A stretch of 64,000 bases of DNA from Streptomyces seoulensis (GTDB lineage: Bacteria; Actinomycetota; Actinomycetes; Streptomycetales; Streptomycetaceae): assembly GCF_004328625.1 (NCBI RefSeq), contig NZ_CP032229.1:4960001-5024000 (forward strand). Reading direction: 5' to 3'. Below are positions 29,575 to 43,587 of the stretch, one piece after another. The position numbers and the translations under genes are program-made. The stretch's first letter is position 1. Each line of letters opens with the position of its first letter. The notes under the pieces were generated by a model. The model did no database searches and was not told where the DNA came from. It worked only from the letters and a program-made list of their open reading frames with translations.

Positions 29575-29709
29575 TCCCCGCCCCGCCCCGGTTGGGGTCC
29601 TGGGTGTCGTACACGGGGCGGTGACCGCGCCTGGGAAGGCCAGGTGAAGGGTCCGTGGGGAACTGGTGAGCGAGCGGCCTATGATGTTGCGGGTTTTCCA
29701 TCGGGATGT

Positions 29710-29726
29710 CCGTATCGGCGATACGG
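29710..29726. promoter_or_regulatory. Perfect inverted repeat before the second propeller gene
   Basis: CCGTATCG-G-CGATACGG, an exact 8+1+8 palindrome, ends 25 bp before the start at 29752 and lies about 24 bp downstream of a possible -10 (TATGAT, 29680-29685). It is well placed as an operator. Confidence 0.5.
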
Positions 29727-29751
29727 CACGCTGCGGGAGGGTGCACACGCC

Positions 29752-30858
29752 ATGCGGAGAAGGCCGGCGGGTACCGCCGCTCGCGGCACCCTCACGGGCG
29801 GGTCGGGGCGGACCGCGACCGGTGCGGCCAGGGGGCGCTGGCTCACCCTCGGCCGGGACGGGAGGCTCAGCCTCTACGCACCGGCCCGCGACGGTCTCCT
29901 GCGCTGGACGGAGACGACGCCCGGCGGCCCCGGCTGGTCCGGGCCGCACCACGCGGCCGTCGCCGGGCTGACCCACCTGTCGGTCACGCAGGGCGCCAAC
30001 GGCTATGTGCACTTCCTCGGCCGTCGGGAGCGGGCCGCCGCCGACGGCGCGCGGAACGTCGACATCGTGCACGCCACCCAGTACCAGACGGGCCTCGCGG
30101 TCACCGACTGGCGCTCGCTGGGCAGCCCGCACCCGGACCGGGCGGAGAGCGCGCGGCTCGGGCCGCCGTGCGGCGCGGTCGCCTCCGACGGCACCGTCCA
30201 CGTCTTCGTACGCGGGGCGCGCGGCGGGCTGCTGCTGCGACGCGAGGACTCGAAGGGCCAATGGCGCGGCTGGGAGGACCTGGGCGGCGCCGGAGTCGAC
30301 GCCCTGCCCGCCACGGTGGCGTTGAGCGGGGGCCGGATCGAGGTGTGCGCCGCGGCGGAGACCGGGGCGTTCGTCTGGCTCCAGTCGCGTCCCGGCGGTG
30401 ACTTCTCCGCGCCACGCGGGTTCTCGCTCCGCCCGCGCCCGGGCACCGTGTCGGCGCTGGAGACGTCGCCGGACCGCGCCGCGTTCCTCTGGACGGACGC
30501 GGAGAGCGGCGAGGCGCATGCCTGGCGGCCGGGCGGCTCACCTGTGGGGCTCGGCGGCGCGGGGGCGGACCAGCCGTACGCGGCGGTCCGCACCTCGCTG
30601 GACGGGGGTGACTGGACGGTGCTGGCCACCCGCGACGCCACGGGGTCGGCGGTGCTCGGCATGGGGATGACCGGGCAGGAGGCAGACGGCTTCTGGTGGC
30701 ACGCTCTGGCCGCCTCCTGCCAGGGCGCGCCCACGCTGGCGCTGGACGGCCGGGGCCGGGTGGCCGTGGCGCTGGTCGGCGCCGACGGGGTGCCGATGGT
30801 GGCCCGTCAGGAGGACGGCCGGGCCGGGCTCGTCCTCACCGACTGGCAACGGCTGTGA
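29752..30858 (+). CDS. PLL/tectonin-like beta-propeller protein, second of a tandem pair
   Basis: A 368-residue paralogue of the gene at 28555. After a basic, low-complexity N-terminus of about 30 residues come the repeats: GRLSLYAPARDGLLRWTETT, then GTVHVFVRGARGGLLLRRED with WRGWEDLGG, each matching the PLL-type blade (strand, Asp-Gly turn, strand, W..W..LGG). No export signal is obvious, so it is probably cytoplasmic or released otherwise. ATG at 29752 follows GGGAGG at 29735-29740. The two genes are 177 bp apart with a palindrome between them, so they may be separately controlled. The role is unknown; lectin-like or protein-scaffold function is inferred from fold only. Confidence 0.68.
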   Translation: MRRRPAGTAARGTLTGGSGRTATGAARGRWLTLGRDGRLSLYAPARDGLLRWTETTPGGPGWSGPHHAAVAGLTHLSVTQGANGYVHFLGRRERAAADGARNVDIVHATQYQTGLAVTDWRSLGSPHPDRAESARLGPPCGAVASDGTVHVFVRGARGGLLLRREDSKGQWRGWEDLGGAGVDALPATVALSGGRIEVCAAAETGAFVWLQSRPGGDFSAPRGFSLRPRPGTVSALETSPDRAAFLWTDAESGEAHAWRPGGSPVGLGGAGADQPYAAVRTSLDGGDWTVLATRDATGSAVLGMGMTGQEADGFWWHALAASCQGAPTLALDGRGRVAVALVGADGVPMVARQEDGRAGLVLTDWQRL

Positions 30859-30874: not shown

Positions 30875-31951
30875 TCAGCCGCCGGTGGCAGGGGACTTCT
30901 TGGCCGACTCCGGGATCTCGGAGTCGCTCCGTATCGCCTTCCACAGCTCGCCCGCCTGAGGCATCGCGGCCACCACTCGGTTGGGGTCGATCCGGTCGTA
31001 GGCGACCGGCAGCATGATGGTCTCCATGTTCGCCGGGTCGACACCGTTGAGGCTGCGGCCGAACTCCGCCAGCTTGGTCAGCGACGCCAGCTGGGAGTCG
31101 GTGGTGAGCGCGGCGGTCAGCTTGTCGGCGATCGTGTACGCCTTCGTGGGGCTGCCCATCAGGTCCTGCTTCTTCACCTCGCTGAGCAGGGCGAGCATGA
31201 ACTGCTGCTGGAGGCCGATGCGTCCGAGGTCGCTGCCGTCGCCTATGCCGTGCCGGGTGCGGACGAACTGGAGGGACTGGGTGCCGTCGAGGCGGTGGGT
31301 GCCCGCCGTCAGGTTCAGGCCGCTGGAGGAGTCGTGGATGTCCTGCGGGACGGTCACCGTGACTCCGCCGATCGCGTCGACCAGGCCCTTGAAGCCGGCG
31401 AAGTCGATCTCCATGTAGTGGTCCATGCGGACGCCGGACATCTGCTCGACGGTCTTCACCACACAGGCCGGACCGACCTGCGAGTAGATGGAGTTGAACA
31501 TCACGCGGTTCGCGCCGGGCACCTTCCCGCCGTCGGCCTTCGTGCACTCGGGCCGGGTCACCAGCGTGTCGCGGGGGATGCTCACCGCGACGGCCCTGGT
31601 GCGGCCCTCCGGTATGTGCATCACCAGCGCGGTGTCGGAACGGGCACCGGACACATGGCCGGTGTGGAGCGCGGCGTTGGCGCCGTCCCGTGAGTCGGAA
31701 CCCAGTATCAGGAGGTTTTGCCCCGAGGTGGGCAGCTTCTGAGGCCGGTCGTCACCGATGGCCTTGTCGAGGTCGACGCCCTTGATGTTGCGGTCCAGGC
31801 CGCTGTAGAGCCAATAGCCGGTGCCGCCCGCGGCGAGCAGCAGGACCAGCAGGATCAGCAGTACGACGCGTCCGCGGCGCTTTCTGGGCCTGGGTGACGT
31901 GCTGTCACCCGGTGGCGTCTGGGCAGGGCGGGGCTCGGTGGCATACGTCAT
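30875..31951 (-). CDS. LytR-CpsA-Psr (LCP) family cell wall glycopolymer transferase
   Basis: LCP proteins transfer teichoic acids or capsular polymers from undecaprenyl phosphate to peptidoglycan on the outer face of the membrane. 358 residues: basic proline-rich cytoplasmic N-terminus, one transmembrane helix at about 28-48 (RVVLLILLVLLLAAGGTGYW), then the LCP domain with NLLILGSDSRDG, SDTALVMHI, VSIPRDTLV, and the arginine-rich lipid-phosphate site LQFVRTRHGIGDGSDLGRIG. It is divergent from the large glycerophosphotransferase fusion at 32334, so substrate maker and ligase sit back to back. It converges on the propeller gene with 16 bp between the stops. Confidence 0.92.
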   Translation of the reverse strand: MTYATEPRPAQTPPGDSTSPRPRKRRGRVVLLILLVLLLAAGGTGYWLYSGLDRNIKGVDLDKAIGDDRPQKLPTSGQNLLILGSDSRDGANAALHTGHVSGARSDTALVMHIPEGRTRAVAVSIPRDTLVTRPECTKADGGKVPGANRVMFNSIYSQVGPACVVKTVEQMSGVRMDHYMEIDFAGFKGLVDAIGGVTVTVPQDIHDSSSGLNLTAGTHRLDGTQSLQFVRTRHGIGDGSDLGRIGLQQQFMLALLSEVKKQDLMGSPTKAYTIADKLTAALTTDSQLASLTKLAEFGRSLNGVDPANMETIMLPVAYDRIDPNRVVAAMPQAGELWKAIRSDSEIPESAKKSPATGG

Positions 31952-32333: not shown

Positions 32334-35300
32334 TTGGCGGATCGTCCGCGTCTGAGCATCGTGGTTCCCTTTCAGGACGTGGAGGTCTACCTCACCGAGT
32401 GCCTGGAGTCGATCGCGCGCCAGTCGTTCCGTGACTTCGAGGTGATCCTCGTCGACGACGGCTCCTCCGACCGCTCGGCGTGGATCGCCGCCGGCTTCTG
32501 CGCGGCCGATCCCCGCTTCCGCCTCGTCCGCCAGCACTCGCACGGCCCGGGTCACGCGCGCAACACCGGCCTTCGCGCGATGCATCCGCGCGGTGAGTTC
32601 CTGGCCTTCGTCGACGGCGACGACGTGATACCCGAGTACGCCTACGAACTGCTGGTGCGCACGCTGGAGGAGTCCGGTTCGGACTTCGTCTCGGGCAACG
32701 TGCAGATGATGAACTCCACCAAGAAGTGGCAGTCCCCGCTGCACCGTTCTCCCATGCAGAAGTCCCGGCGCGGCACCCACATCACGAAGTTCGACGCGCT
32801 CATCTACGACCGCACCGTGTGGAACAAGGTGTTCCGCCGCGGCTTCTGGGACGACCAGCGCATCACGTTCCCCGAGGGCGTCATGTACGAGGACTCCTGG
32901 GTCAACATGTACGCGCACTTCCGCGCGGCCAAGGTCGACGTCCTCACCGACATCGTCTACTTCTGGCGTCGCCGCGACGGCGGTGCGGCCCCGTCCATCA
33001 CGCAGCGGTACACCGAACTCTCCAACCTGCACGACCGGGTGACCGCCGTGATGGCGGTCAGCCGTTTCCTCACCGACGAGCGGTCCAACGCCGGCAAGGA
33101 CAGCAAGCGCAAGTACGACACCGCCTGCCTGAAGTCCGACCTGATGCTGCATCTGAAGATGCTTCCGGACGCGGACGAGGAGTATCAGCAGGCGTTCATG
33201 ACGTGGGCCAACTGGTTCCTCGACCAGGCCGACCCCACCATCATCGACGAACTGCCCGCCGAGGCACGGGTGAAGTGGCTCCTGGTCCGCGACTGGCGGC
33301 TGTCCGAACTGCTCGAAGTGGTCCAGTTCGAACGCAAGGGCGGCCCCATCCCCGTCCAGCGCCGCTTCCGCCGCTATCTGAAGTACCCCTTCCTCGGCGA
33401 CCGGGGAGTCGGCCTCGACAGGAAGGCGTACCGGCTCGACCAGGAGTTCTCCCTCGCCGGGACACTCAGCGCGGCGCGGTGGAGCCCGGACGGCGACGAA
33501 CTGAACCTCACCGGCACCGCGTACGTCCGTTTCCTCAACGTCCACAAGAAGCACATGTCGGTCAAGGCCATCGCGCTGCGCAACAAGAAGCAGGGCCGCA
33601 TGGTCGTCACTCCGGCGCGCACGACCTACGCCCCGCAGGCCACCGAACACTCCAAGCAGAATCGTTACTGCTACGACTGGGCGGGTTTTGAGACCCGTAT
33701 CGACACCTCCCGGCTGAAGAGCAAGGGGGAGTGGGTGGAAGGCACCTGGGACGTGGCCGCCGGTGTCCTCAGCCGGGGGCTGTTCCGCTACCGGGGCATC
33801 AGCCGCGGAAGCGTGGGCACGGGCGCCAACCCGCCCCACCGGTACGTCGACAAGAACACGCGGGTGCTGCCCGTCTTCCTCCAGGGCAAGCTCAAGCTGC
33901 GCGTGGAAGTCGTGCGCTGCCGCATCACCAGCCACCGGATAGCGGGCGACCAGCTCGAACTGCGCGGTGTCTATCTCGGTCCGACGGTGCCGGAGTGGGG
34001 AAAGCTCCGGGTCGCCAGCATGAACGGCGCCGGGCGCCACGACGCGTGGGCCCACTTCACCCCCGGCGGCGAGGGCTGGAGCGGCTTCACCGTCCGCATA
34101 CCGCTGCGGGTGCTGGTGCCCGGCTCTCGCGCCGACGTGGCGGCCGGTCAGGAAGCGCCCCAGTCCTGGAACATGGGCAGCAACGGCTGGAAGACCACCT
34201 TCCACGTCGAGGGCCGCAAGATGACCATCTATCCGGTGATGGCCGACGACACCGCCGACGGCCACTACCGCATGCCCGCCGCGCTTCAGACTCCGGAGGG
34301 CGACCGGGAGATCGTCGTCCACCGCAACGGCTCCGGGTACCTCGTCCTCTTCGAGCGCGCCACGCTGCCCACCGTCACTCACGCCGCCTGGCGCCCCGAC
34401 GGCGCACTGGAGATCGCCGGCCGGTACGGTGCCGCCGACCGGCTCTCGGCCCAGGAGTACCGCGACGCCCACCTGGTGGTGCGCTCCCGTGCCCACGGGG
34501 CCGAACGCGCGGTCCCGCTGACCTGGGACGGCAAGCGCTTCAGCTCCGTCCTCACCCCCGCCGCGATGCGGACCCTGGCCGGCGACATCCCCCTCGCCGC
34601 CGGGCGCTGGGACTTCTTCCTGCGCCGTCAGGACCCCTCGACCGTCTCCCGCGAGGACCGGCTCGAAGACCTGATGTGCAAGATCGAGCAGAGTCTCATC
34701 GACGACTTCCCGCAGGACCGCGAGGAGAACGAGCGCCGCTACGAGCTGCAGGCCGAGGCGTACGACCGCCTCTCCCTGCTGGTGCACTCCGCGATGCCCG
34801 ACCATGCCCGCGGCCCCTACCGGCAGAAGCTGCTGCGTACCCATGCGTATCCCGAGGCCCGCCGGAAGCCGGTGCGCCCCGCGATCCTCTTCGACGCGTT
34901 CAAGGGCACCCAGTACTCCGACAGTCCGCGTGCCCTGCACGAGGAACTGGTACGTCGTCACTCCGACCTGGAGCACCTCTTCGTCGTCCGGGACGATCAG
35001 GTCCAGGTGCCGCCCACGGCCACTCCGGTCCGCATGTGGTCGCCGGAGTGGTACGAGGCCCTGGCCACCAGCCGCTACGTCGTGGCCAACAACCACCTGC
35101 CCGACTGGTTCCAGAAGCGGGAAGGCCAGGTCGTCGTACAGACCTGGCACGGCACACCGCTGAAGAAGATCGGCCATGACATCGAGGCCATCCACTTCGC
35201 CGACCAGAGTTACCTGGAGCGCGTGGCGAAGGAGGTGCTGAACTGGGACATGCTGGTCTCGCCCAACACCTTCTCCACCCCGATCCTCCAGCGCGCCTTC

Positions 35301-36158
35301 GGATTCGAGGGCGAGATGGTCGAGTGCGGTTACCCCCGCAACGACGTGCTGCGCCGGTCCGGCACCGAGGGCCGGCGGGAGGAGATCCGCCGCAGGATCG
35401 GCCTGCCCGGGGGCAAGCGGGTCGTCATGTACGCCCCGACCTGGCGCGACGACCAGTTCTACGCACCCGGCAAGTACAAGCTCGACTTCCGGATCGATCT
35501 CGCGGACGCCCGCGCGCGGCTCGGCGAGGACCACGTGCTCCTTGTCCGTCGCCACCCCAATGTGGTGGACCCCGTGCCGAGCGCCGGGGACGGTTTCGTC
35601 TTCGACGTCTCCGACTACCCGGACATGGCCGACCTGTCGCTGATCACCGACGTGATGATCACCGACTACTCGTCCCTGATGTTCGACTACGTCAACACGG
35701 GCCGCCCCATCCTGTTCTTCACCTACGACCTGGACCACTACCGGGACACCCTGCGCGGCTTCTACTTCGACTTCGAGCAGAGCGCCCCCGGCCCGCTGCT
35801 GCGCTCCTCGGAGGAACTGGTCGGCGCCATCCGGGAGATCGACCACATCCAGGAGAGCTACGCCGACCGGTACCGCCGCTTCCGGCGCGACTTCTGCGAT
35901 CTGGACGACGGCTACGCGGCGGCCCGCCTCGCCGACCGCATGCTCATCGCGGGCGGCGACCTGGCGCCCGCGCAGGCATGGGCCCCGGCGGTGGGCACGT
36001 CGGCCGCGCGGCCTCTCGCGTCCTTCGGGGCCGGGCAGGTGACGGAGAACCTGGTGAACGCGATACCGGCTCCCGCTCCCGCCGCGTTCGGCGGCCGCGT
36101 CGACGTGTCGGCGATGCTTCCGGGGCAGAGCCGGGTGACCGAGAACGTGGTTGTGTGA
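32334..36158 (+). CDS. Bifunctional glycosyltransferase family 2 / CDP-glycerol glycerophosphotransferase (teichoic-acid-type polymerase)
   Basis: A 1274-residue cytoplasmic or membrane-associated polymer synthase. Residues about 5-240 are a GT-A glycosyltransferase (LSIVVPFQDVEVYLTECL, ILVDDGSSDRSAW, the DGDD metal site in LAFVDGDDVI, and ED in MYEDSWV). Residues about 240-840 are a long unassigned middle part. Residues about 840-1215 are a TagF-type glycerophosphotransferase (VVVQTWHGTPLKKIG, MYAPTWRDDQF, ITDYSSLMFDYVNTG). The last 60 residues are Ala/Pro-rich and repeat VTENLV...VTENVV. TTG at 32334 follows GGAG with good spacing. Product is likely a glycosylated poly(glycerol phosphate)-type wall polymer; the neighbouring LCP protein would attach it. 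Confidence 0.88.
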   Translation: MADRPRLSIVVPFQDVEVYLTECLESIARQSFRDFEVILVDDGSSDRSAWIAAGFCAADPRFRLVRQHSHGPGHARNTGLRAMHPRGEFLAFVDGDDVIPEYAYELLVRTLEESGSDFVSGNVQMMNSTKKWQSPLHRSPMQKSRRGTHITKFDALIYDRTVWNKVFRRGFWDDQRITFPEGVMYEDSWVNMYAHFRAAKVDVLTDIVYFWRRRDGGAAPSITQRYTELSNLHDRVTAVMAVSRFLTDERSNAGKDSKRKYDTACLKSDLMLHLKMLPDADEEYQQAFMTWANWFLDQADPTIIDELPAEARVKWLLVRDWRLSELLEVVQFERKGGPIPVQRRFRRYLKYPFLGDRGVGLDRKAYRLDQEFSLAGTLSAARWSPDGDELNLTGTAYVRFLNVHKKHMSVKAIALRNKKQGRMVVTPARTTYAPQATEHSKQNRYCYDWAGFETRIDTSRLKSKGEWVEGTWDVAAGVLSRGLFRYRGISRGSVGTGANPPHRYVDKNTRVLPVFLQGKLKLRVEVVRCRITSHRIAGDQLELRGVYLGPTVPEWGKLRVASMNGAGRHDAWAHFTPGGEGWSGFTVRIPLRVLVPGSRADVAAGQEAPQSWNMGSNGWKTTFHVEGRKMTIYPVMADDTADGHYRMPAALQTPEGDREIVVHRNGSGYLVLFERATLPTVTHAAWRPDGALEIAGRYGAADRLSAQEYRDAHLVVRSRAHGAERAVPLTWDGKRFSSVLTPAAMRTLAGDIPLAAGRWDFFLRRQDPSTVSREDRLEDLMCKIEQSLIDDFPQDREENERRYELQAEAYDRLSLLVHSAMPDHARGPYRQKLLRTHAYPEARRKPVRPAILFDAFKGTQYSDSPRALHEELVRRHSDLEHLFVVRDDQVQVPPTATPVRMWSPEWYEALATSRYVVANNHLPDWFQKREGQVVVQTWHGTPLKKIGHDIEAIHFADQSYLERVAKEVLNWDMLVSPNTFSTPILQRAFGFEGEMVECGYPRNDVLRRSGTEGRREEIRRRIGLPGGKRVVMYAPTWRDDQFYAPGKYKLDFRIDLADARARLGEDHVLLVRRHPNVVDPVPSAGDGFVFDVSDYPDMADLSLITDVMITDYSSLMFDYVNTGRPILFFTYDLDHYRDTLRGFYFDFEQSAPGPLLRSSEELVGAIREIDHIQESYADRYRRFRRDFCDLDDGYAAARLADRMLIAGGDLAPAQAWAPAVGTSAARPLASFGAGQVTENLVNAIPAPAPAAFGGRVDVSAMLPGQSRVTENVVV

Positions 36159-37216: not shown

Positions 37217-38605
37217 ATGTCTGAAGCCCCGGCCAAGCGCCGCCAGGTGATCAAGGGGATCGACGCGTCCGGCCCCTACCCGGTCGAGTACCGGTTCGCG
37301 CACGCCCCGGACGCCGAACGCCATCTGATGGTCGTACTCGCCGGTCTGGACGACCCGGACGGATACGGCTGGGCGACCGGCCAACTGGACGACCTGCCGG
37401 TGAACGTCCTGTGGATCCGGGACCGGTTCGACGGCGGCAGCACCTCCTACCTGTGCCGGGAGATGGACTTCGGGGTCGAGAAGTCCGTGGCCGGCGTCGT
37501 CGCGCGGGTGACGGAATCGCTCGGGCTGCACCGCTTTGAGGTCACGCTCTGGGGCAGCGCCCGTGGCGGCAGCGCGGCACTCCACCTCGGGCTGAAGCAC
37601 GGATACGGCAACATCGTCGCCGTCGGCCCGGAGTTCGCGCTCGGCTCGACCGTGCGCGAGCGGCGCCCGGCCGTGGCCCGGCACCAGCTGGGTGAGCCGA
37701 CGACCGACGACGACGCCCGTACCCTCGACTCCCTCCTGCCCGACCTGCTGGCCTCCGGCGTGAATCCGCAGGCGAACATCTATGTGGTGGTCCCGACGGA
37801 CGGCCAGCCGGACGCCGAGCGCGAGCTGTGCCTCGGACTGCTGCGCCGGTACCGGAACGCCGACCTCGTCCAGAAGACGTTCCCCCTGCTGAGCCTCGCC
37901 CAGATGCTCGTCGCGGGCCTCGTCCCGCGCCTGACCGTGGCTCCCCTGGCCCAGCAGCCGCCCCGCTCCGGCCCGCGCGGCATCGGCAGCTACCTCAAGT
38001 CCACTTCCGTGGTGCAGAGTTCGTTCGCCGCGCCGGTCGTGCTCTCACCCGGCCCGGACGACCTGCTGGCGGCCACCGGCGTGCGCCTCGTCGGCCGGGC
38101 GCCCGGAGCGGTCCGGGTCAGCCTGTGGGAGAACGGCACGTACCTGGCGTCGGCGCCCGTGACGGTGGACGGCGACTGGAGCTGGGCCCGGCGGACCTGG
38201 ACACCGGGCGAGCACAACGTGCGCCTCTTCGCCGTCGACGCACACGGCTATCAGTCCCCGCGCACCGAAGCGCAGTTCACGGTGTCCGACCACCTCACGC
38301 CGGGAGTCGTTCCCGCCGGGCCCGGCGTGGCCGCCCCGCCGGTCGTGCAGCGCCCGGAGCCCTATCTCCAGGTGCCCGCCGCCCGCGTCGGGTTCACCGG
38401 GTTCGCCACCGGCGCGGGCCGGGTCGGTTTCCGGGAGAACGGAGCCGTCCTCGGGGAGTGCGCGGTCGCTGCCGACGGAGCCTGGTCCTGGGTACCGGAA
38501 GGCCCCTGGACCGAGGGACCGCACACCGTCGAAGTCTTCTCCATCGGCGCCGCTGGCACCGAGTCCCGGCCCGCCGCCGTCACCTTCGCCGCCACCGAGT
38601 CCTGA
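37217..38605 (+). CDS. Asp2-like alpha/beta-hydrolase paralogue lacking catalytic residues, with Ig-like repeats
   Basis: A 462-residue protein, paralogous to the next gene. Residues 1-255 are an alpha/beta-hydrolase fold resembling the accessory-Sec Asp2 family (VIKGIDASGPYPVEYRF, VNVLWIRDRFDGG). At the nucleophile elbow it reads WGSARGGSAAL, with Ala115 where the partner has Ser, and the segment holding the partner's catalytic His is replaced by KTFPLLSLAQ. So it is probably a pseudoenzyme. Residues about 285-375 and 390-462 are two Ig-like repeats (AVRVSLWENGTYLASAPVTV; GRVGFRENGAVLGECAVAAD). No signal peptide is visible. ATG at 37217 starts the conserved region; 38 bp separate it from the partner gene. 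Confidence 0.72.
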   Translation: MSEAPAKRRQVIKGIDASGPYPVEYRFAHAPDAERHLMVVLAGLDDPDGYGWATGQLDDLPVNVLWIRDRFDGGSTSYLCREMDFGVEKSVAGVVARVTESLGLHRFEVTLWGSARGGSAALHLGLKHGYGNIVAVGPEFALGSTVRERRPAVARHQLGEPTTDDDARTLDSLLPDLLASGVNPQANIYVVVPTDGQPDAERELCLGLLRRYRNADLVQKTFPLLSLAQMLVAGLVPRLTVAPLAQQPPRSGPRGIGSYLKSTSVVQSSFAAPVVLSPGPDDLLAATGVRLVGRAPGAVRVSLWENGTYLASAPVTVDGDWSWARRTWTPGEHNVRLFAVDAHGYQSPRTEAQFTVSDHLTPGVVPAGPGVAAPPVVQRPEPYLQVPAARVGFTGFATGAGRVGFRENGAVLGECAVAADGAWSWVPEGPWTEGPHTVEVFSIGAAGTESRPAAVTFAATES

Positions 38606-38643
38606 GCCCCGACCGCAGCACACCACAGAGCGGAACCCTCCCC

Positions 38644-40152
38644 ATGTCCCCAGCAGCACCCGCCGGGCGCAAGCAGTACACCGGCATCGAGTCCTCCGGG
38701 ACCTTTCCGGTCGAATACCGGTTCACGCCCGCCGCCAAGGGCAATCGGCACCTCGTCGTCGTCTTCGCCAACTTCGCCGCGCCCCAGGACTACGGCTGGT
38801 CCAACGGGGTCTTCGACAAGCTGCGCGCCAACGTCCTCTGGATTCGTGACAAGTTCGACGACCACCGCAGCTACTACCTGTGCAGGGACATGGACTTCTC
38901 GCTGGAGCGGTCCGTCCTCGCGCTGATCTCCAACGTCATGCGCGCCCTCGAACTCACCCCCGACTCCGTGACTCTGTGGGGGAGTTCCAAGGGCGGCAGC
39001 GCCGCACTGCACTTCGGTCTGAAGTACGGCTTCCGCAACATCGTGGCCATCGCCCCCCAGTTCGCCATCGGCACCTACGTCCGGGACGTCCACCCCGGTG
39101 TCGCCCGGTTCATGCTCGGTGAGAGCGTGCCGGAGGAGAACGTGCGCGCCCTGGACGCGCTGATCCCCGACCTGCTGCGCGCCGGCGCGAACCACACGGC
39201 CAACATCTACGTCGTGTCCGCCGCCCAGGACGACCAGTACCCCACCCAGATCGAGCCCTACCTGGGCCTGCTCCGGAACTACGCCAACTTCAACCTGGTC
39301 TTCAGCGACTCTCCCCACATCGCTGACCACACCCAGGTCGCGGGGCGCAACGTCCCGCTCCTGATGGGCCTCGTCAACTTCCTGATCGACGGCATCGCCC
39401 CGCGCCTGGGCCTCGTGCGCAACGGTTTCGAGGAACCCGACCGCGACACCTCGGTGCTCTCCTCCTATCTCTCCGCCACCGCCATGGTGCGCGGCGCGGA
39501 GTTCCCGCCACCCGTCGTGCTCGCCCCCTCCCCGGACGAGCAACTGCACCAGGAAGCCGTCCACTTCAGTGGTCACGCCCCCGGTGCGGCACGGGTGAGC
39601 GTCTGGGAGCACGGCAAGTACATCGGCCAGTGCGACGTCGGGCCCGACGGAAGCTGGTCCTGGGAACTGGGACGTGCCTGGAGCCTGGGCAAGCACCCGG
39701 TGAAGCTCTACGCGGTCGACGCCTACGGCTACCAGTCGAAGCGGATCGAGCTGACGTTCACCGCGGTCGGCGGCCCCGCCGCTGCGCGTCCCGCCCAGCC
39801 TGCGGCGGCGAGCGGACCCCCACTGGCGACGACAGGACCGGGGGCGGCCGCGCCGATGGTGCTTGAGCCCATCGCACACGAGCAGGTCATGGACGCCCAG
39901 GTGGTCTTCACCGGCCTGGCGACCGGTGCGGCGCGCGTCGGGTTCCGTCTGAACGGCATGCCGCTGGGCGTCACGGAGGTGGCCCAGGACGGTGGCTGGA
40001 CCTGGGACGCGGGCTGGGCGTGGGACGCGGGCACCCATGTCGTCGATGTCGTCGCCATGAACCAGGCCGGCGTCGAGTCCCCGGCGACCACGGTCCCCTT
40101 CACCGTCATGCCCGTCCCGGCCCCCGCCGCCTACTACGGCGGGACCTACTGA
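38644..40152 (+). CDS. Asp2-like alpha/beta-hydrolase with Ig-like repeats
   Basis: A 502-residue protein. Residues 1-255 form the hydrolase domain: YTGIESSGTFPVEYRFTPAA, ANVLWIRDKFDDHRSYYLCR, the nucleophile elbow WGSSKGGSAAL with Ser115, an acidic residue in SAAQDDQYPTQ, and His225/His229 in SDSPHIADHTQ. This is a plausible Ser-Asp-His triad. Asp2 relatives are O-acetyltransferases of exported glycoproteins; a role in acylating an envelope polymer here is inference from the nearby polymerase and LCP ligase. Two Ig-like modules follow (ARVSVWEHGKYIGQCDVGPD; ARVGFRLNGMPLGVTEVAQD). No signal peptide. It forms an operon with the degenerate paralogue upstream and ends at a bidirectional hairpin. 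Confidence 0.75.
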   Translation: MSPAAPAGRKQYTGIESSGTFPVEYRFTPAAKGNRHLVVVFANFAAPQDYGWSNGVFDKLRANVLWIRDKFDDHRSYYLCRDMDFSLERSVLALISNVMRALELTPDSVTLWGSSKGGSAALHFGLKYGFRNIVAIAPQFAIGTYVRDVHPGVARFMLGESVPEENVRALDALIPDLLRAGANHTANIYVVSAAQDDQYPTQIEPYLGLLRNYANFNLVFSDSPHIADHTQVAGRNVPLLMGLVNFLIDGIAPRLGLVRNGFEEPDRDTSVLSSYLSATAMVRGAEFPPPVVLAPSPDEQLHQEAVHFSGHAPGAARVSVWEHGKYIGQCDVGPDGSWSWELGRAWSLGKHPVKLYAVDAYGYQSKRIELTFTAVGGPAAARPAQPAAASGPPLATTGPGAAAPMVLEPIAHEQVMDAQVVFTGLATGAARVGFRLNGMPLGVTEVAQDGGWTWDAGWAWDAGTHVVDVVAMNQAGVESPATTVPFTVMPVPAPAAYYGGTY

Positions 40153-40243: not shown

Positions 40244-42373
40244 TTACGCGGGCACGCTCGCCACGCCCTGCTCCAGGAACGGCTTGCCGTTCACCCGCTC
40301 GGAGACGCCCTCACGGTCCAGGTACGGCGTGATGCCGCCCAGGTGGAAGGGCCAGCCGGCGCCGGTGATGAGGCAGAGGTCGATGTCCTGGGCCTCGGCG
40401 ACGACGCCCTCGTCCAGCATGAGGCCGATCTCCTGGGCCACGGCGTCCAGGACGCGTTCGCGGACCTGCTCCTCGGTCAGGACGGAGTCGCCCTGCTTGA
40501 GCAGCGCGGCGACCTCGGGGTCCAGCTCCGGCTTGCCGCTGTCGTAGACGTAGAAGCCGCGCTTGCCGGCCTCGACGACCGCCTTCAGGTTCGGGGAGAC
40601 CGTGAAGCGGTCCGGGAAGGCCCGGTTGAGGGTCTCCGAGACGTGCAGGCCGATCGCCGGGCCGACCAGCTCCAGCAGCACCAGCGGGGACATCGGCAGG
40701 CCGAGCGGCTCGATGGCCTTCTCCGCGACCTCGACCGGGGTGCCCTCGTCGATGACGTTCTGGATCTCGCCCATGAAGCGGGTCAGGATGCGGTTGACGA
40801 CGAACGCCGGGGCGTCCTTCACCAGCACCGCGGTCTTCTTCAGCTTCTTGGCCACGCCGAACGCCGTCGCCAGCGAGGCGTCGTCGGTCTGCTCGCCGCG
40901 CACGATCTCCAGCAGCGGCAGGATCGCGACCGGGTTGAAGAAGTGGAAGCCGACGACCCGCTCGGGGTGCTTCAGCTTGGACGCCATCTCCGACACCGAC
41001 AGCGAGGAGGTGTTGGTGGCGAGGATCGCGTGCGCCGGGGCGACCGCCTCGACCTCCGCGAACACCTTCTGCTTGACGCCCATCTCCTCGAAGACGGCCT
41101 CGATGACGAAGTCGGCGTCCGCGAAGCCCTCGGCCTTGTCCAGGACACCGGTGACCAGCGCCTTGAGGCGGTTGGCCTTGTCCTGGTTGATCCGGCCCTT
41201 GCCGAGCAGCTTGTCGATCTCGGCGTGGACGTAGCCCACACCCTTGTCGACGCGCTCCTGGTCGATGTCGGTCAGCACGACCGGCACCTCAAGGCGGCGC
41301 AGGAAGAGCAGCGCGAGCTGGGAGGCCATCAGACCGGCGCCGACGACGCCGACCTTGGTGACCGGACGCGCCAGCGACTTGTCGGGGGCGCCCGCGGGAC
41401 GCTTGCCGCGCTTCTGCACCAGGTTGAACGCGTAGATGCCGGACCGCAGTTCGCCGCCCATGATCAGGTCGGCGAGCGCCTGGTCCTCGGCGTCGAAGCC
41501 CTTCTGCAGGTCGCCGTCCTTGGCGCCCTCGATGATCTCCAGCGCGCGGTAGGCGGCCGGGGCCGCGCCGTGCACCTTGGAGTCCGCGACGAAGCGGCCC
41601 TTCGCGACGGCCTGGTCCCACGCCTCGCCCCGGTCGATCGCCGGACGCTCGACGGTGACGTCGCCCTTGAGGACCTGAGCGGTCCACAGCAGCGACTGCT
41701 CCAGGAAGTCGGCACCCTCGAACAGCGCGTCGGCGATGCCGAGTTCGAAGACCTGCTTGCCCTTGAGCTGGCGGTTCTGGTTGAGGCTGTTCTCGATGAT
41801 GACCTGGACGGCCTTCTCGGCGCCGATCAGGTTCGGCAGCAGGGCGCAGCCGCCCCAGCCGGGCACCAGGCCGAGGAAGACCTCGGGCAGCGAGAACGCC
41901 GGGATCGCCTTGGAGACGGTCCGGTAGGAGCAGTGCAGGCCGACCTCGACGCCGCCGCCCATCGCCGCGCCGTTGTAGTAGGCGAAGGTCGGGACCGCGA
42001 GGCCGGAGAGGCGCTTGAAGACCTCGTGGCCGCCCTTGCCGATGGCGAGCGCGTCCTCGTGCCGCTTCAGCAGCTCGACGCCCTTGAGGTCGGCGCCGAC
42101 CGCGAAGATGAACGGTTTGCCGGTGATGCCGACACCGACGATGTCACCGGCGGCGGCCTCCTTCTCGACCTGGTCGATCGCGGCGTTCAGGTTCGCCAGC
42201 GAGGCCGGGCCGAAGGTGGTCGGCTTGGTGTGGTCGAAGCCGTTGTCCAACGTGATCAGCGCGAACTTGCCCGCGTTGAAAGGCAGTTCGAAGTGCCGTA
42301 CGTGGGCCTGGGTGACGACCTCGCCGGGGAACAGCTCGGCGGCACCCTTCAGCAGCTCGGTGGTGTCGCTCAC
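40244..42373 (-). CDS. fadB: 3-hydroxyacyl-CoA dehydrogenase / enoyl-CoA hydratase (FadB-type multifunctional beta-oxidation protein)
   Basis: Hydrates enoyl-CoA and oxidises 3-hydroxyacyl-CoA with NAD in fatty acid beta-oxidation; cytoplasmic. 709 residues. The crotonase half (1-300) has the oxyanion stretch GAAMGGGVEVGLH and both catalytic glutamates (GGGVE and LPEVFLGLVPGWGG). The dehydrogenase half has the NAD fold VGVVGAGLMASQLALLF, catalytic His in VVGFHFFNPVAI, and ATNTSSLSVSEMA. GTG at 42373 follows GAGGGGG; its GTGA overlaps the stop of the thiolase gene, so the two subunits are translationally coupled and will form the trifunctional complex. Confidence 0.96.
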   Translation of the reverse strand: MSDTTELLKGAAELFPGEVVTQAHVRHFELPFNAGKFALITLDNGFDHTKPTTFGPASLANLNAAIDQVEKEAAAGDIVGVGITGKPFIFAVGADLKGVELLKRHEDALAIGKGGHEVFKRLSGLAVPTFAYYNGAAMGGGVEVGLHCSYRTVSKAIPAFSLPEVFLGLVPGWGGCALLPNLIGAEKAVQVIIENSLNQNRQLKGKQVFELGIADALFEGADFLEQSLLWTAQVLKGDVTVERPAIDRGEAWDQAVAKGRFVADSKVHGAAPAAYRALEIIEGAKDGDLQKGFDAEDQALADLIMGGELRSGIYAFNLVQKRGKRPAGAPDKSLARPVTKVGVVGAGLMASQLALLFLRRLEVPVVLTDIDQERVDKGVGYVHAEIDKLLGKGRINQDKANRLKALVTGVLDKAEGFADADFVIEAVFEEMGVKQKVFAEVEAVAPAHAILATNTSSLSVSEMASKLKHPERVVGFHFFNPVAILPLLEIVRGEQTDDASLATAFGVAKKLKKTAVLVKDAPAFVVNRILTRFMGEIQNVIDEGTPVEVAEKAIEPLGLPMSPLVLLELVGPAIGLHVSETLNRAFPDRFTVSPNLKAVVEAGKRGFYVYDSGKPELDPEVAALLKQGDSVLTEEQVRERVLDAVAQEIGLMLDEGVVAEAQDIDLCLITGAGWPFHLGGITPYLDREGVSERVNGKPFLEQGVASVPA

Positions 42374-43587
42374 TTGTCCCCCTCGAAGTTCGGGTTCTCC
42401 CAGATGACCGTCGCGCCCATGCCGAAGCCGACGCACATGGTGGTCAGGCCGTAGCGGACGTCCGGGTTCTCCTCGAACTGGCGGGCGAGCTGGGTCATCA
42501 GCCGCACACCGGAGGAGGCCAGCGGGTGGCCGAACGCGATCGCGCCGCCGTACTGGTTGACGCGGTTGTCGTCGTCGGCGATGCCGTAGTGCTCCAGGAA
42601 CGCGAGGACCTGGACGGCGAACGCCTCGTTGATCTCGAACAGGCCGATGTCGGAGATCGACAGGCCGGCCTTGGCGAGGGCCTTCTCGGTGGCCGGGATC
42701 GGGCCGTAGCCCATCACCTCGGGCTCGACGCCGGCGAAGGCGTAGGAGACCAGGCGCATCTTGACCGGCAGGCCGTTCTCGCGCGCGAACTCCTCGGACG
42801 CGATGAGGGAGGCGGTGGCGCCGTCGTTCAGACCGGCCGCGTTGCCCGCGGTGACCCGGCCGTGCACGCGGAACGGCGTCTTGAGGCCGCTCAGGTTCTC
42901 CAGCGTGGTGCCGGGGCGCATCGGCTCGTCGGCGGTGACCAGGCCCCAGCCCGTCTCACCGGCCTCCTCGTTGGTGCGGCGCACCGAGATCGGCACCAGG
43001 TCCTGCTGGATCTGGCCGTTGGCGTACGCCTTGGCGGCCTTCTCCTGCGAGCGGACCGCGTACTCGTCGGCGCGCTGCTTGGTGATGGTCGGGTAGCGGT
43101 CGTGCAGGTTCTCGGCGGTCATGCCCATGAACAGCGCCGACTCGTCGACCAGCTTCTCGGAGACGAAGCGCGGGTTGGGGTCCACGCCCTCGCCCATGGG
43201 GTGGCGGCCCATGTGCTCGACACCGCCCGCGATGGCGATGTCGTACGCGCCGAAGGCGACCGAGCCGGAGACGGCGGTCACGGCGGTCAGCGCGCCCGCG
43301 CACATGCGGTCGATGGAGTAGCCGGGCACCGACTGCGGCAGGCCCGCGAGGATGCCCGCGGTACGGCCGAGGGTCAGGCCCTGGTCACCGATCTGGGTGG
43401 TCGCGGCGATGGCGACCTCGTCGATCTTCTTCGGGTCCAGACCGGGGTTGCGGCGCAGCAGCTCCCGGATCGCCTTCACGACGAGGTCGTCGGCGCGAGT
43501 CTCGTGATAGATGCCCTTCGGGCCCGCCTTGCCGAACGGGGTGCGGACGCCGTCGACGAAGACGACGTCCCTGACGGTACGAGGCAC
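42370..43587 (-). CDS. fadA: Acetyl-CoA acyltransferase (3-ketoacyl-CoA thiolase)
   Basis: Cleaves 3-ketoacyl-CoA to acetyl-CoA and a shortened acyl-CoA, the last step of beta-oxidation. 405 residues, normal length. The nucleophile Cys is in YSIDRMCAGALTA; the second half has NVNEAF-type motif as FEINEAFAVQVL, the catalytic His in GGAIAFGHPLASSG, and the second Cys in TTMCVGFGMG. ATG at 43587 follows GGAGGAGAG. It is the first gene of the fadAB operon. Two inverted repeats in the 60 bp upstream suggest regulation by a TetR-type fatty-acid repressor. Confidence 0.97.
   Translation of the reverse strand: MPRTVRDVVFVDGVRTPFGKAGPKGIYHETRADDLVVKAIRELLRRNPGLDPKKIDEVAIAATTQIGDQGLTLGRTAGILAGLPQSVPGYSIDRMCAGALTAVTAVSGSVAFGAYDIAIAGGVEHMGRHPMGEGVDPNPRFVSEKLVDESALFMGMTAENLHDRYPTITKQRADEYAVRSQEKAAKAYANGQIQQDLVPISVRRTNEEAGETGWGLVTADEPMRPGTTLENLSGLKTPFRVHGRVTAGNAAGLNDGATASLIASEEFARENGLPVKMRLVSYAFAGVEPEVMGYGPIPATEKALAKAGLSISDIGLFEINEAFAVQVLAFLEHYGIADDDNRVNQYGGAIAFGHPLASSGVRLMTQLARQFEENPDVRYGLTTMCVGFGMGATVIWENPNFEGDK

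Follow-up and report, generated by a model that had tools for sequence, protein, structure and literature searches.

A catalytically degenerate paralogue and a predicted CsaC-like O-acyltransferase near a TagF-like polymerase gene of Streptomyces seoulensis

Two adjacent genes of Streptomyces seoulensis, here called A and B, encode proteins in which a head related to CsaC, the O-acetyltransferase of the Neisseria meningitidis serogroup A capsule, is joined to a tail of immunoglobulin (Ig)-like modules. The genes lie within the 64,000-nucleotide stretch that was analysed (the window; contig NZ_CP032229.1, positions 4,960,001 to 5,024,000), on the same strand and with 38 bases between the stop of A and the start of B. 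Their products are tandem paralogues, with approximately 45% identity (tblastn) over almost the full length, and each consists of an N-terminal head of about 250 residues followed by two Ig-like modules. With start codons set by homology, the genes and the positions within them that bear on catalysis are as follows.

37217-38605, + strand: gene A, 462 amino acids, ATG at 37217; catalytically degenerate CsaC-like paralogue with an alpha/beta-hydrolase-type head and two Ig-like modules
37559..37561, + strand: codon 115 of A, GCC, Ala at the nucleophile position (GSARGG at 113-118)
37631..37633, + strand: codon 139 of A, GAG, Glu; Gln in 51 of 55 family members (CsaC Q138)
37799..37801, + strand: codon 195 of A, GAC, Asp; triad position kept, by alignment
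37883..37888, + strand: codons 223-224 of A, site of a 15-residue deletion that removes the His loop (MAFFT gap opposite the DSPHIADH segment of B)
38009..38602, + strand: tail of A, two Ig-like modules (Pfam and tail comparison)
38644-40152, + strand: gene B, 502 amino acids, ATG at 38644; predicted CsaC/XcbB-like O-acyltransferase with two Ig-like modules
38986..38988, + strand: codon 115 of B, TCC, predicted Ser nucleophile in the GSSKGG motif (CsaC S114)
39058..39060, + strand: codon 139 of B, Gln (CsaC Q138), by alignment
39229..39231, + strand: codon 196 of B, Asp (54 of 55 family members)
39328..39330, + strand: codon 229 of B, His (51 of 55 family members), taken as CsaC H228
39499..40113, + strand: tail of B, two Ig-like modules (Pfam and tail comparison)

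A preliminary description of this DNA, made from its letters, had given both proteins two Ig-like modules and no signal peptide, and both points hold. Two stretches in each protein match Pfam Big_6 above its cut-off of 27.6 bits (A, 33.4 bits; B, 37.9 bits), Big_13 is likewise above its cut-off in the tails, and a hydrophobic N-terminus is absent, the maximal 19-residue Kyte-Doolittle mean over residues 1-45 being 0.44 in A and 0.56 in B. The lack of a signal peptide is expected for such proteins, because capsule synthesis of the CsaC kind is cytosolic. A Big_6 search of the source genome missed even A and B and is thus uninformative on further Ig proteins.

The head falls into no family above cut-off, for A or B, in Pfam and NCBIfam. 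Among solved structures, CsaC (listed as SacC, 6yuo) was matched by B at a phmmer E value of 1.3e-9 and by A at 3.2e-5, and a profile of 20 heads gave E values of 8.9e-15 for CsaC, 3.9e-9 for the XcbB/CpsF protein 9hvz, 2.5e-4 for Glycosylation Associate Protein 2 (6oyc) and 0.014 for the Asp2 chain 6lnw. CsaC is therefore the nearest characterized relative and Asp2 a remote cousin; TAL-effector rows in the profile search, with 0 passing stretches, were taken as chance. Membership in the Asp2 family, as first proposed for the pair, is not borne out, since B scores 12.9 bits against Pfam Asp2 (PF16929), whose cut-off is 28, and since 6lnw lies so far behind CsaC in the profile search. The accompanying suggestion of a glycan O-acylating kind of enzyme is supported. 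A search of the window's genome for the Asp2 family returned no match at E 0.001, and a Lactococcus lactis control matched, also below cut-off. The XcbB/CpsF model (NF033892), searched against 396 genomes of the phylum, matched 10 at E 0.001, none above cut-off, and eight of these genomes belong to other families (E 1.1e-4 to 6.0e-4). No literature on Ig-tailed CsaC-like proteins of Streptomyces was found, although most subscription papers were out of reach and its absence is thus unproven.

Conservation at the presumed active site was counted over 55 heads, comprising 37 that carry an Ig tail as in A and B (type I; window and named species included) and 18 of other tail type, with none dropped. 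Ser115 is present in 52, Gln139 in 51, Asp196 in 54 and His229 in 51 of the 55. In B, Ser115 and Gln139 align with CsaC S114 and Q138 in both single-sequence and profile alignments. CsaC D198 pairs with Asp196 of B in the profile alignment and with Asp197 in the single-sequence alignment, Asp196 being the conserved residue; His229 lies outside the stretch that aligns with CsaC and is equated with H228 from conservation and motif order alone. Within DSPHIADH (residues 222-229) both His225 and His229 had been put forward as catalytic; position 229 stands, and His225 was rejected as the catalytic base, as His occurs there in only 12 of the 55 heads against 51 at 229. CsaC Y144, like R148, bears on acceptor positioning; its column holds Tyr145 in B and is not conserved in the family. 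As judged from sequence, B would thus possess a CsaC-type Ser-Asp-His triad together with the supporting Gln.

The same set is not found in A, in which position 115 is Ala, position 139 is Glu and the His loop is deleted, with Asp195 kept. The preliminary description had correctly read Ser115 in GSSKGG and DSPHIADH in B, as well as Ala115 in GSARGG and the missing His segment in A; its count of two lost catalytic positions becomes three, as Gln139 is also replaced. Loss of Ser, Gln and His together is confined to three of the heads, those of A in the window, S. bauhiniae (L055) and S. griseoluteus (L056), which share the same deletion; position 115 is Ala in the window and Gly in each of the other two species. 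Single active-site losses occur in three more copies, namely Q139E in the first copy of one locus (L040:8653-10134), H229A in a second (L042:8843-10345) and D196G in a third (L094:9556-11091). The copies with H229A and D196G are the sole type I copies within their stretches.

The distribution of the pair was assessed by searching 392 Streptomyces genomes, one per species, with A, whereby 54 matched at E 1e-10; one stretch was fetched for each of the 53 matching genomes besides the window, and three loci from named species were added. The counts depend on that E value, on at most four candidates scored per genome at first look and on stretches of at most 20 kb. Twenty-two of the 54 genomes (the window's included) encode the type I head plus Ig tail, 17 a related head joined to another kind of tail, and 15 match by the tail alone. 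Nine of the 22 type I genomes have tandem pairs (G000, G052, G054, G068, G126, G131, G190, G221 and G277) and 13 a single copy. A dead copy appears in three of the 12 pairs examined (nine surveyed plus the three named species), all in three related species; neither copy has lost Ser, Asp or His in the other eight surveyed pairs or in that of S. triticisoli, and one copy of the G054 pair has Q139E. The pair is thus not a general enzyme/pseudoenzyme system as had been supposed, and independent occurrence of the two genes in most genomes, which the preliminary description had named as evidence against such a system, is largely what is seen for the pair as such.

A phylogeny of 41 heads (the 37 of type I and four chosen from the 18 others) unites the three dead A heads in one clade (support 100/100) nested in a group of eight (98/95); Ser, Gln, Asp and His are all retained in the remaining five heads of that group (S. 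triticisoli, G068, G095, G221 and G277). The row of G068 is nearest to the dead clade, joined to it at a support of only 95/78. The stem of the three A heads measures 0.86 changes per site versus 0.21 for the matching three B heads, so that the earlier statement that A is otherwise well kept was too strong for the head; tip lengths range from 0.067 to 0.080 for A and from 0.010 to 0.021 for B. The Nei-Gojobori ratio of non-synonymous to synonymous substitution (dN/dS) lies between 0.38 and 0.45 for the head of A and between 0.14 and 0.22 for that of B. For the full-length proteins it is 0.37-0.43 in A, 0.19-0.38 in B, 0.33-0.39 in the neighbouring endonuclease/exonuclease/phosphatase family protein (EEP) and 0.10-0.13 in the TagF-like polymerase. 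The full-length ranges of A and B overlap, and the contrast between the two thus resides in the head; the tail of B is also loose (0.17-0.55).

Neutral evolution of A was simulated with the fourfold-site spectrum in 400 runs for each of three species pairs, comparisons that share sequences and are not independent. The observed numbers of amino-acid-changing codons in A were 64, 68 and 50, while the neutral runs averaged 101.2, 110.0 and 76.7; the observed values lay below the lowest of the 400 runs (89, 94 and 66) in all three comparisons. The open frame of A is by itself weak evidence, because 143 to 167 of the 400 neutral runs were also free of stops. A was strongly altered once and then held by purifying selection. 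This supports the earlier view of a dead paralogue still under selection as a protein, on firmer ground than the preliminary argument gave, and A displays two marks of a pseudoenzyme, i.e., loss of the active site kept across speciation and later purifying selection.

An alternative that we consider rather unlikely, albeit the most probable of those weighed, is that A is a decaying duplicate, a dead gene not yet removed after the locus gave up one of its two acylation specificities; such a loss may have been advantageous in altering a surface target of phages or toxins. The fourfold longer stem and higher dN/dS of the A head would fit such decay, as would the single losses in the three other copies, and wall-polymer structure, which differs among Streptomyces, decides umbrella-toxin targeting, according to the accessible text of PMC13274773. 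However, the frame of A is open in all three species that share the dead site, its amino-acid changes are fewer than in any neutral run, and its full-length constraint is about that of EEP, with the range for B overlapping. The neighbouring genes in the window are as follows.

30875..31951, - strand: LytR-CpsA-Psr glycopolymer transferase (LCP), by family match
32334..36158, + strand: GT2 plus TagF-like (Glyphos_transf) polymerase, 1274 amino acids
36223..37254, - strand: EEP, with a hydrophobic N-terminal stretch judged by eye
40244-42436: FadJ (label by eye), present in 17 of 24 type I loci
29644-30858: frame of 404 amino acids; its relative at L031:1344-2453 has no Pfam match

Each of the 25 loci (24 of 24 fetched plus the window) has TagF-like polymerase sequence next to its type I gene, and Stealth matches are absent from these type I stretches; a Stealth search of the source genome, in which no control genome matched, says nothing on absence there. 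Labels outside the Pfam matches were set by BLAST at E 1e-7. In nine of the 21 loci measured, all from outside the three named species, the TagF and acyltransferase genes share an 8-base overlap of stop and start. An EEP match occurs in 21 of 24 related loci; in the window EEP separates the polymerase from A, whereas it follows the acyltransferase wherever the 8-base overlap occurs (nine loci). Of the 24 type I loci, 20 have a match to the 404-residue frame, some of them in two copies. The window's genome has seven Glyphos_transf matches, and the polymerase of the window is therefore not its sole TagF-like gene. GT2 enzymes are, we assume, of the GT-A type. In its accessible text, PMC5974469 describes GT-A/TagF-like polymerases as a family making phosphate-containing capsule polymers.

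The tail is also found on an unrelated head, in the chromosomal slot that A and B take up in the window. In all 15 of the tail-only genomes, the fetched stretch (L102-L105 and L117-L127) encodes an SGNH/GDSL-like head with a tail related to that of A and B, the SGNH label resting on Pfam Lipase_GDSL_2 in both of the two proteins scanned (above cut-off in one) and on BLAST in the remainder. A profile of 32 type I tails (five of the 37, below 150 residues, being excluded), with database size set to one million, matched all 15 proteins at E 8.9e-36 to 1.5e-19 and produced no row at E 10 with 15 shuffled and 15 reversed controls. The heads themselves are dissimilar, with E values of 0.11 and 4.4 in the two SGNH/type I pairs compared. 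Stealth matches occur in all 15 SGNH stretches, a TagF match in none, and FadJ in 14, as in the window. The accessible text of two papers (PMC11481543, PMC7831098) describes a poly(diglycosyl 1-phosphate) polymer in the wall of S. coelicolor, a kind of polymer that Stealth-type enzymes could make. A reverse search found full-length SGNH-Ig matches in 23 of the 392 genomes, i.e., these 15 and eight more; the chromosome of one of the eight (G269) also encodes, at another place, a type I protein, which shows that the two kinds can occur together. A third arrangement, seen in 10 of the 17 other-tail loci (L044-L048 and L096-L100), joins a related CsaC-like head to an unrelated tail and has frames of 1479-1954 amino acids with GT2-TagF plus a CDP-alcohol phosphotransferase match. 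A separate SGNH match is present in seven of these 10 loci.

A tail common to two unrelated heads in one slot more likely binds a component shared by the slot than catalyses, its candidate partners being the polymer, the polymerase and the export machinery. A broader proposal, which we advance tentatively, is that the slot forms a cassette system for wall phosphopolymers, in which polymerase and modifying head would be swapped jointly, GT2-TagF going with a CsaC-like head and Stealth genes with SGNH heads, and the double Ig tail would be kept as an adaptor for polymer or machinery; in one clade, the dead head A would then serve only as a binding or regulatory subunit of B. Given that polymer structure decides umbrella-toxin targeting (PMC13274773, accessible text), a locus that swaps polymerase and head is a candidate source of toxin specificity.

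For the window itself, it is fairly probable that B is a cytosolic O-acyltransferase that acetylates a sugar-phosphate wall polymer, and that A is a retained non-catalytic paralogue, most likely a partner of B. In the accessible text of the CsaC study (PMC7501274), CsaC carries acetyl from acetyl-CoA to the assembled capsule polymer via acetyl-Ser114, with H228, D198 and Q138 involved; S114A and H228A abolish transfer, whereas D198A removes 99.5% and Q138A 96.8% of it. The enzyme is a tetramer, and its acetylation stabilises anomeric phosphodiesters (PMC7501274). By analogy, B would act in the cytosol, since CsaC does so, with acetyl-CoA as its most likely donor. Ser115 would attack acetyl-CoA, with His229 as base together with Asp196, and Gln139 would support the acetyl-enzyme, from which the acetyl group would pass to the polymer. 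The nearby GT2-TagF polymerase would make a wall polymer with phosphodiester linkages, whose sugar hydroxyls would be the acceptor, and acetylation would precede export and LCP attachment to peptidoglycan. The Ig-like tail of B may hold the polymer or a part of the machinery. A would descend from a second acyltransferase that the locus once had; the loss of Ser, Gln and His would date from the common ancestor of the three species, and A may now be a polymer-binding or mixed-oligomer subunit of B. Such a role is reasonable because CsaC is tetrameric and because active-site mutants of Asp2, a remote relative, still export GspB, a catalysis-independent role according to the accessible text of PMC5578698.

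Several observations weigh against this reading. The strongest sub-threshold match of the B head, to XcbB/CpsF (NF033892), reaches 59.6 bits (E 2.9e-16) versus a curated cut-off of 125, and A reaches 23.8 bits; B likewise falls short of the Asp2 cut-off, and A is unlisted there at E 1. At the place of CsaC R148, which positions the acceptor, B has Val149, with Arg147 nearby, and conservation across the family is lacking at both 147 and 149. AlphaFold gave poor models from alignments of eight rows (mean pLDDT, the predicted local distance difference test, 59.0 and 58.0), and the 50 Foldseek matches listed for each model were mostly Ig/Fn3 modules and glycosidases carrying them, with no CsaC or XcbB entry; the claims on the head therefore make no use of structure. 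As EEP intervenes on the other strand, A and B are not a simple continuation of the polymerase operon, and the TagF sequence next to the type I gene of one locus (L091, from G269) is broken up over several frames, through gene disruption or an assembly error. In other genomes B-like proteins occur unaccompanied by a dead copy, as in the 13 single-copy genomes of the 22. Finally, the head of A evolves about four to five times faster than that of B, which leaves room for slow decay.

That B might be a hydrolase, removing O-acetyl groups from the wall polymer, is improbable: weak Pfam Esterase and Hydrolase_4 matches, both below cut-off, would agree with it, as would the esterase fold and slow acetyl-CoA hydrolysis of CsaC (PMC7501274, accessible text), but the nearest relatives of solved structure are CsaC, for which transfer is proven, and an XcbB/CpsF protein, one of its PDB molecule names ending in ACoA, and a B without signal peptide would meet acetyl-CoA, not mature wall. 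It is most improbable that the pair is the Asp2-like part of an accessory Sec/serine-rich-repeat adhesin system, since three long members from other Streptomyces (19.0, 23.0 and 25.1 bits against the cut-off of 28) and the 6oyc profile match (E 2.5e-4) speak for a remote relative, yet the window's genome lacks an Asp2-family match at E 0.001, Asp2 ranks far below CsaC, and the neighbourhood is one of polymer synthesis in 25 of 25 loci. If B is indeed a wall-polymer acetyltransferase and A its non-catalytic paralogue, a capsule-type O-acetyltransferase known from a Gram-negative pathogen would be placed in Streptomyces wall-polymer synthesis, the live/dead pair of heads would be a natural test of what a dead head is for, and related tails on two unrelated catalytic heads would raise the question of the tail's ligand.

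Among known systems, CsaC has a head related to that of B, with GSSKGG, the PQ motif and the Asp position alike; its gene is near a phosphopolymer polymerase, and its polymer is made on the cytoplasmic side. It differs in having 255 amino acids in its PDB entry and no Ig tail, in R148, and in a csaABCD cluster that, as described, has no dead paralogue. CsaB, the polymerase of CsaC, is presumably of the Stealth type and not TagF-like. Residues 33-249 of B align to 72-290 of the 291-position XcbB/CpsF model, with a score well under its curated cut-off, and the 9hvz chain has 354 amino acids; we know of no Ig tail in XcbB/CpsF proteins. Asp2/Gap2 of accessory Sec is also an O-acetyltransferase with a triad of the Ser-Asp-His type, but its match is below cut-off, and it acts on glycosylated adhesins in accessory Sec export. 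Finally, UtrI, which is predicted to be an acetyltransferase and belongs to the teichuronic-acid locus of S. griseus, exemplifies proposed O-acetylation of a Streptomyces wall glycopolymer; its locus has other anchor genes, and it is likened to B by proposed role (PMC13274773, accessible text).

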